Below are positions 26,393-27,311 of a DNA stretch of 40,789 bases, piece after piece. Numbering within the stretch: position 1 is the first letter of the stretch; the number at the start of each line of letters is the position of its first letter. The stretch covers positions 1 through 40,789 of the forward strand of contig JAKVBA010000040.1 in NCBI GenBank assembly GCA_022447525.1, read 5' to 3'. Made by a program: the position numbers and the translations under genes. This stretch comes from Gammaproteobacteria bacterium. GTDB lineage: Bacteria; Pseudomonadota; Gammaproteobacteria; Arenicellales; Arenicellaceae. The notes beneath the pieces were generated by a model that worked only from the letters and a program-made list of their open reading frames with translations, did not search any database and was not told the DNA's origin.

Positions 26393-26881
26393 ATGAGCCG
26401 TTGGCGTCCACCCAGTCCAAGATCAACTCCAATTATTACGCCCGAGGGTTATGCTGCACTTGAACGTGAGATCAAAGCGCTATGGGCAAAAAGAAGAATC
26501 GTAAATGACGCGCTAGCAGCGGCAGCGGCCGAAGGAGATAGGTCTGAAAATGCTGAGTATATTTATCGTAAAAAAGAACAAGCTGGTATAGATCGGCGCA
26601 TTCGATACCTACAAAAGCGTATGCCTGATCTAAAATTAGTCAACCAGGTGGGTGACACAAGTAAAGTTTATTTTAGTGCTTATGTAGAGCTGGAAAGAGA
26701 TGACGGAGTGATAGTTAAATATCGAATTGTCGGCGCCGATGAAACCAATACTCAGGCAGGCGATATCAGTGTTGATTCACCACTAGCAAAGGCATTGATG
26801 AAGAAAGAAATTGATGACGAAGTTTTTATAAAAATGGATGAAAAAACAGTGTCTTACGTGATTTTAGATATTCATTACTAG
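26393..26881 (+). CDS. greB: Transcription elongation factor GreB
   Basis: A 162-residue protein that rescues backtracked RNA polymerase by stimulating transcript cleavage. The N-terminal coiled coil (about residues 15-80) includes AAAAEGDRSENAEYIYRKKEQ, in which the acidic tip residues act at the polymerase active site. The C-terminal FKBP-like domain has DDGVIVKYRIVGADETN and DSPLAKALMKKEIDDEV. The Arg/Pro-rich start (MSRWRPPSPRSTPIITPEGY) is GreB- rather than GreA-like. No strong Shine-Dalgarno is visible before 26393. Confidence 0.95.
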   Translation: MSRWRPPSPRSTPIITPEGYAALEREIKALWAKRRIVNDALAAAAAEGDRSENAEYIYRKKEQAGIDRRIRYLQKRMPDLKLVNQVGDTSKVYFSAYVELERDDGVIVKYRIVGADETNTQAGDISVDSPLAKALMKKEIDDEVFIKMDEKTVSYVILDIHY

Positions 26882-26921
26882 AATCAAATCGACATACTTG
26901 AAATATAAAAATGTAATATAG

Positions 26922-26949
26922 GTGACAATTATTAAATTTTCGTTACAAT
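26922..26949 (+). promoter_or_regulatory. Candidate promoter for the small RNA
   Basis: GTGACA (26922-26927) and TACAAT (26944-26949), 16 bases apart, each match sigma-70 boxes at five of six positions and predict a start near 26956. A second possibility is the extended -10 TGATATAAA at 26982-26990, which lacks a good -35 and would start near 26997. Confidence 0.55.
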
Positions 26950-26955
26950 GGGCAA

Positions 26956-27123
26956 TCGAGCATTTTTTTGAACGAAAAATTTGATATAAATACCCACGTC
27001 GGCCCAGTGCGAGACACACTACCGACATGTTGTTTTTCATTTGAAAACCAAACTAAATAGGCCCCACCCCTACAATATTTAGTTTGATTAAGCGCTTTAG
27101 TCTTTGACTAAAGCGCTTTTTTT
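26956..27123 (+). ncRNA. Candidate trans-acting small RNA with C-rich loop
   Basis: There are three stacked structural signals on the plus strand. Stem 1 is GTCGG/CCGAC (26998-27002 with 27022-27026), with an inner AGTG/CACT helix. Stem 2 is a perfect 11-bp helix, 27049-27059 with 27076-27086, exposing a 16-base loop that contains CCCCACCCC. Stem 3 is the 13-bp terminator. No open frame fits, and the next plus-strand gene begins 1.6 kb further on, behind a minus-strand gene, so this is not a leader. A C-rich loop presented on a helix is typical of RNAs that pair with ribosome binding sites. The 5' end is uncertain (about 26956 or 26997). I do not recognise a named family. Confidence 0.6.
27090..27123 (+). 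terminator. Intrinsic terminator of the small RNA candidate
   Basis: AAGCGCTTTAGTC pairs perfectly with GACTAAAGCGCTT (27090-27102 with 27106-27118) around TTT, followed by an unbroken T-run to 27123. It could also catch greB transcripts, whose gene ends 209 bases upstream. Confidence 0.9.
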
Positions 27124-27311
27124 GAAATTTCAGATTAGATTCGTATAGTTTAGTTCTTTTTCTGCGGTTCTACCTTCCGTTGTTCTCACCTCTTCACCGC
27201 CTGGTAATTTTAATGCCTTGCAAAAGTTTGGCTGAGGGCCACAAGAGTAAGCCTTAAATCATCGTAACAGATCAACTACGCTTCAACCTACTCTCCTTGG
27301 CTAGTTGGTAA

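Follow-up and report, generated by a model that had tools for sequence, protein, structure and literature searches.

Small RNAs (sRNAs) with C-rich or pyrimidine-rich loops have been described in several bacteria, and three of them offer the closest comparison for the locus reported here; the features given for each are those set out in the cited passages. RepG of Helicobacter pylori, an sRNA encoded between genes, uses a pyrimidine-rich loop to pair with a G-rich leader, the two elements involved being the terminator loop and a homopolymeric G-repeat (PMC8295292). IsrR of Staphylococcus aureus comprises three stem-loops and a terminator, and its C-rich single strands contact mRNAs, including their Shine-Dalgarno sequences (PMC9410917). 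LhrC of Listeria monocytogenes carries C-rich UCCC loop motifs, and its transcription requires a two-component response regulator that acts via promoter sequence upstream of about -53 (PMC4132741). ArcA operators take the form of direct repeats 11 bp apart, and OmpR and PhoB are named as relatives of ArcA (PMC3798270).

We analysed a stretch of 40,789 nucleotides, here called the window in its entirety, in which positions 26996-27123 of the plus strand appear to be a gene for a small RNA in the marine genus Arenicella. Its sequence points to an sRNA family that is new but of a known kind and, among the genomes examined, confined to one genus, and by its anatomy the RNA may work like the base-pairing sRNAs with C-rich loops, RepG, IsrR and LhrC. 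As far as the cited passages describe these RNAs, the likeness to RepG lies in a C-rich or pyrimidine-rich loop within an intergenic sRNA; the terminator loop of the Arenicella RNA, however, is TTT rather than C/U-rich, and it is a separate internal hairpin that displays the C-rich loop with its core CCCACCCCUAC. Whereas IsrR is controlled by Fur, has three C-rich regions and contacts Shine-Dalgarno sequences, the Arenicella RNA has one C-rich loop and a different promoter logic, and long complements of its loop are not enriched before ATG codons. LhrC is present in five copies in Listeria, as against the single copy found here. Operators of the ArcA/OmpR/PhoB type consist of at least two direct repeats at 11 bp centre-to-centre, and the form RTTAM-N6-RTTAM upstream of the Arenicella RNA is likewise so spaced. 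We found no earlier description of an Arenicella sRNA in the full-text literature, a body that mostly excludes subscription journals, and no relevant paper by title among the matches listed for a small RNA downstream of greB.

Anatomy and promoter of the predicted small RNA

The predicted RNA is about 126-128 nt long and runs from the putative start to the end of a T-run (26996-27123, on the plus strand, like the RNA and promoter elements described below), a length at the low end of the 125-170 nt anticipated in a preliminary description of this DNA. The stem-loops reported there, among them an 11-bp stem with a 16-nt loop and a 13-bp terminator with a T-run, are all in place. At the 5' end, a hairpin (26998-27026) is formed by GTCGG (26998-27002) and CCGAC (27022-27026) around a short inner stem; its loop contains GAACGA in most relatives and CGAGACA in the window's own copy. 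Next comes the near-invariant UGUUGUUUUUCAUUUGAAA (27028-27046), which may form a weak A-U hairpin (about 27034-27047) or present a single-stranded seed. It is followed by a perfect 11-bp stem (27049-27086), referred to here as the C-loop stem, in which CAAACTAAATA (27049-27059) pairs with TATTTAGTTTG (27076-27086). The 16-nt C-rich loop that it encloses (27060-27075) contains CCCCACCCC at 27062-27070, and the invariant loop core (27063-27073) is the proposed seed. An intrinsic terminator (27090-27123), made of a perfect 13-bp stem (27090-27118) and T's to 27123, closes the RNA. The predicted fold of positions 26956-27130 has an energy of -45.3 kcal/mol, compared with -24.4 +/- 3.5 for shuffled sequences (z = -5.95), and none of 200 shuffles equalled it.

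No plus-strand frame of at least 40 codons overlaps the small RNA, in agreement with the preliminary view that no protein frame accounts for it; a minus-strand frame of 58 codons (26864-27040) overlaps its 5' part. No Rfam 15 family reached its gathering score anywhere in the window, and sub-threshold matches within 26880-27200 scored 12-24 bits, the best of those near the small RNA at 23.8 bits. A sub-threshold scan (E up to 1) of two small-RNA loci, together with four loci of a second RNA described below, gave as its sole match the family ncS54 on the copy in genome G005, at 21.9 bits against a cut-off of 43.

An extended -10 element, TGA-TATAAA (TGATATAAA; 26982-26990), places the expected transcription start at about 26996-26998. 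Inspection by eye identified a TGN followed by a hexamer beginning with TA, ending 27-40 bp before the conserved core, in 15 of 16 relatives, and a script scored it in 14, with G001 and G009 failing. No conserved -35 hexamer was seen among the 16, and the extended -10 site did not appear in the list of a general promoter scan. Further upstream lies a direct repeat with an 11-bp period, RTTAM-N6-RTTAM (ATTAA-ATTTTC-GTTAC; 26931-26947), a candidate OmpR/PhoB-family site. Taking the best position in a 60-base range, all ten defined positions match in all 16 loci, the window's own included; its distance to the TG of the -10 element is 51-52 bp in 13 loci and 60-62 bp in three, for which the script had chosen a more distal repeat. 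By sequence, then, these 11-bp direct repeats hold a nearly fixed place upstream of the -10 element, as in promoters regulated by the OmpR/PhoB family, and we infer that they could be the binding site of an activator of that family.

The preliminary description had instead proposed GTGACA-N16-TACAAT as the promoter. Both hexamers exist, GTGACA (26922-26927) just before the direct repeat and TACAAT (26944-26949) overlapping it, but the region holds about as many promoter-like matches as chance would give (3, with 2.6 expected) and relatives do not share TACAAT, and we rejected the pair as the main promoter. With promoter-like elements, a terminator and no Rfam match, the locus nonetheless stands as the undescribed small-RNA candidate that had been suggested.

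Distribution and conservation

Searching by blastn, we detected the small RNA in 16 of 100 genomes (the window's own, G000, and relatives), all 16 of which belong to the window's genus. A covariance model, R1, returned the same 16 among 109 genomes of the order, each with a single full copy at 103-153 bits, although these matches are partly by construction because the model was built from those genomes. The model found no copy in the 91 order genomes outside the genus, under strict filters that can miss weak homologues. In a class-wide sample of 369 genomes, with strict filters and few candidates scored per genome, it matched four genus members and six others at 18-27 bits; the six lack the C-rich loop and were rejected as homologues. 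A search of viral contigs with one exact pattern gave 0 matches. We left out of the alignment two duplicates of the window's own locus (L001 and L002) and a 26-base partial match in G009 that is without the loop (L019; E 9e-4), and we disregarded a short antisense self-match of the terminator stem in G000.

The conserved core spans about 64 nt (alignment columns 34-97) and consists of UGUUGUUUUUCAUUUGAAA and the stem holding CCCACCCCUAC. Mean pairwise identity among the 16 sequences reaches 92% within the core; for the 5' hairpin it is 47% and for the terminator 67%. For greB the mean is 67% overall and 40% at third codon positions, and the best window of 64 bases reaches 81%. The loop core is identical in all 16 sequences and UGUUGUUUUUCAUUUGAAA in 14, G008 having one substitution and G012 one inserted T. 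Every cell of the C-loop stem is paired across the alignment; 8 of its 11 pairs are invariant, and every change in the three variable pairs is from A-U to G-U, so both the sequence and the structure of the core's stem and loop are under constraint.

The flanking hairpins change in sequence and keep their pairing. According to each sequence's own minimum-energy fold, the 5' hairpin is predicted in all 16 sequences, and stem positions 1-8 counted from its loop show four or five pair types each; in the terminator helix, 6 of 10 pairs carry changes on both sides among relatives. Compared with shuffles, the stretch of the 5' hairpin alone gives z values from -1.1 to -4.6, clear in some relatives and weak in others. 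The covariation score of the whole structure is 0.223 against 0.112 in shuffles, with 0 of 500 as high and structures slid along the alignment reaching at most 0.098, a comparison in which kinship alone can exceed shuffles without any structure. The compensatory changes that had been expected in the first two stems are thus present in the 5' hairpin and missing from the C-loop stem.

Search for pairing targets

The preliminary description had envisaged silencing through ribosome binding sites resembling GGGGTGGGG, an idea to which the frequencies of long complements lend no weight. The complement of the 12-base loop (region B), GTAGGGGTGGGG, with at most one mismatch, occurs 63 times in 17 genomes, compared with 97 for a reversed-pattern control; 16 of the 63 are the small-RNA gene itself, and 15 loci were inspected among these matches, of which 47 are non-self. 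Likewise, GGGGTGGG followed by ATG within 14 nt was not enriched in eight genomes (62 against 73 for the control), and this arrangement is absent from G015 (99% complete) although that genome has the small RNA. Within the window, the loop complement with at most three mismatches occurs 16 times against 15.25 expected.

A conserved segment of 18 bases, region A, gave a similar picture. Its complement, TTCAAATGAAAAACAACA, with at most three mismatches, was found at 125 places in 16 genomes (16 self and 109 non-self) compared with 98 for the reversed control, and is not clearly enriched. We read 40 of these 109, picked by eye because the match contains an ATG, and found no recurring gene with the complement at its start; the only genes that recurred (frames of at least 40 codons) made up two groups, and in both the ATG is internal to a longer open frame. 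These tests covered long complements of the loop and of region A. One of the six weak class-level matches, locus L080 (1526-1549) of G156, a genome from another family of the class, reproduces 17 bases of region A exactly, TTGTTTTTCATTTGAAA, inside a perfect hairpin upstream of a frame beginning MARPKKAAVKKK; we took this match to be due to chance.

The loop is conserved beyond what a short seed would need and the sequence of the stem is kept too, a pattern that would also fit a protein site. On such a reading the RNA would act as a decoy or scaffold, bound through its conserved stem and C-rich loop: the stem is as conserved in sequence as the loop, the entire 64-nt core is near-invariant and no conserved long target emerged from our searches. 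Against it stand the lack of any Rfam family at gathering score and the absence of GGA loop motifs, the signal recognized by CsrA, from the window's own 5' loop. We regard protein binding as unlikely, and base pairing with other RNAs is the reading that we prefer.

A second conserved RNA and its candidacy as a partner

One loop complement, GTAGGGGTTGGG, recurs in 9 of 17 genomes. Three of these sites (in G006, G008 and G010) lie elsewhere, and the other six fall within a second conserved structured RNA of the same genus, RNA-2, to which this recurrence led us. RNA-2 (L201 from position 2260 on G000:C13; L190-L203 and L206 in relatives) lies 3' of a gene that, from its sequence alone, we take to encode a LuxR/NarL-type response regulator. 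Its layout comprises a palindrome, AGACTTTAGTCT, a motif, GGTTAGGTAGG, a long hairpin with an inner G-rich hairpin, and a terminator; by eye, palindromes such as AGACTTTAGTCT stand upstream of the RNA, before a possible -10 element. Of the 18 genus genomes, 17 have the regulator gene, and the 5' motif of RNA-2, exact or with few changes, follows it in 15 of the 17 loci, the remaining two (G006 and G010) ending in or near the regulator gene. Searching G006, G010 and G016 with an RNA-2 pattern produced only matches with two mismatches, and no Rfam family reached its gathering score in the four RNA-2 loci scanned.

RNA-2 could in principle be the main partner of the small RNA, with the C-rich loop pairing to the G-rich hairpin and one RNA sponging the other. 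In its best-matching forms (G011 and G017) the inner hairpin carries GUAGGGGUUGGGUA. When the predicted duplex was compared with 300 shuffles in each of 13 genomes, no shuffle equalled it in G013 or G017, 3-4 did so in G011 and G014, and 10-20 in G001, G012 and G009. In the window's own genome, however, 233 of 300 shuffles paired as well, complementarity no better than chance; shuffles were as good in 97 cases for G007, 89 for G015, 69 for G003, 58 for G008 and 48 for G002, and the G005 duplex is weak. Across 14 genomes, cognate duplexes came to -19.3 kcal/mol and non-cognate ones to -18.7, an advantage of 0.5 (permutation p = 0.015, from a post hoc test uncorrected for kinship), yet the cognate duplex of G014 (-23.0) falls short of its mean with other small RNAs (-24.7), and those of G000, G007, G008 and G009 are also marginally weaker.

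The loop flanks tell a similarly divided story. By eye they partly covary, an A before CCC accompanying GGG-U and a U before CCC accompanying GGG-A in G001 and G014, but G009 breaks the pattern. RNA-2 has lost its second GGG both in G004, which is without the small RNA, and in G000, where the loop flank is changed; in G005 and G015, on the other hand, the G-rich form of RNA-2 has also been lost without any change in the small-RNA loop. The G-rich stretch is, moreover, explicable by the predicted hairpin of RNA-2 in which it lies. It seems improbable to us that RNA-2 is the main partner, and we keep the pairing as a lead only, with RNA-2 as a weak partner candidate. Doubtful too is a two-RNA circuit in Arenicella, which the sequences would permit: a C-loop RNA driven by one two-component regulator would recognize, by loop-hairpin pairing, a G-hairpin RNA located next to another regulator, of LuxR type, and the two undescribed RNAs would thereby link two sensory systems at the RNA level.

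Gene neighbourhood

Of the 18 genus genomes, 16 (G000-G003, G005-G015 and G017) carry the small RNA 3' of greB, and recQ and greB precede it at all 16 loci. The thiolase gene beyond it was matched at 10 of the 16 and unmatched in L004, L006, L008, L011, L016 and L018; for L006 and L016 the available stretch was only a few hundred bases. In the window greB occupies 26393-26881. A second GreA/GreB-like match, at 32-36% identity, occurs in 12 of 13 genus genomes searched.

In all 16 loci greB is on the same strand as the small RNA and its alignment ends about 117-177 bp from the core, an arrangement that would suit a functionless 3' untranslated region of greB with its terminator. A terminator has no need of a core that is 92% identical, however, and promoter-like elements are conserved within the interval between greB and the core. 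Genomes that retain greB without the small RNA speak against this reading as well: G004 (98% complete) has recQ, greB and the thiolase gene, with about 85 bp between the latter two, and G019, from another genus of the same family, has greB at 65% identity and no small-RNA core in the downstream sequence examined. Altogether, a mere greB untranslated region is very improbable. In G016 (81% complete) there is no close greB (best 35%). The preliminary expectation that the loop would be conserved wherever greB is kept agrees with an unchanged C-rich core in 16 of the 17 genus genomes with this greB, G004 being the exception. As a separate observation on G004, a repeat, GAGCCTTTAGCGAGTTTTAATCT / GAGCCTTTAGCGAGTTTTACTCT, flanks a run of N upstream of greB (L048, about 2090-2250).

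A tiny peptide such as MLFFI from 27027 is scarcely credible and was rejected, for although most relatives have an ATG and a five-codon frame there, neither is conserved (3 of 16 have C or T in place of the A, and an extra base shifts the frame in one relative) and no Shine-Dalgarno-like sequence is visible by eye.

Discussion

We put at roughly 60% the probability that this locus is an independently transcribed gene of Arenicella for a trans-acting, base-pairing small RNA activated by a regulator. Judged by sequence, it shows features expected of Hfq-type trans-acting sRNAs, namely an extended -10-like element, a terminator, no conserved frame and an hfq gene in the genome (Hfq in the window's own genome: PF17209, 102.8 bits, G000:C161). 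In the mechanism that we propose, a response regulator of the OmpR/PhoB family would activate the small RNA under some stress, and Hfq would hold its U-rich 3' terminus. Short seeds in the C-rich loop, perhaps together with UGUUGUUUUUCAUUUGAAA, would first engage G-rich stretches in several mRNAs, and pairing would lower the translation or stability of those mRNAs. The cytosine-rich loop of the RNA is probably used to grab other RNAs.

The finding adds an uncatalogued, well-bounded small-RNA family from a marine genus, together with its promoter elements, its structure and its distribution. Its 11-base loop is unchanged across species whose greB differs at 60% of third codon positions on average, which suggests either many targets or one indispensable partner. 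The small RNA is thus a clean test case for recognition by C-rich loops in a marine gammaproteobacterium.
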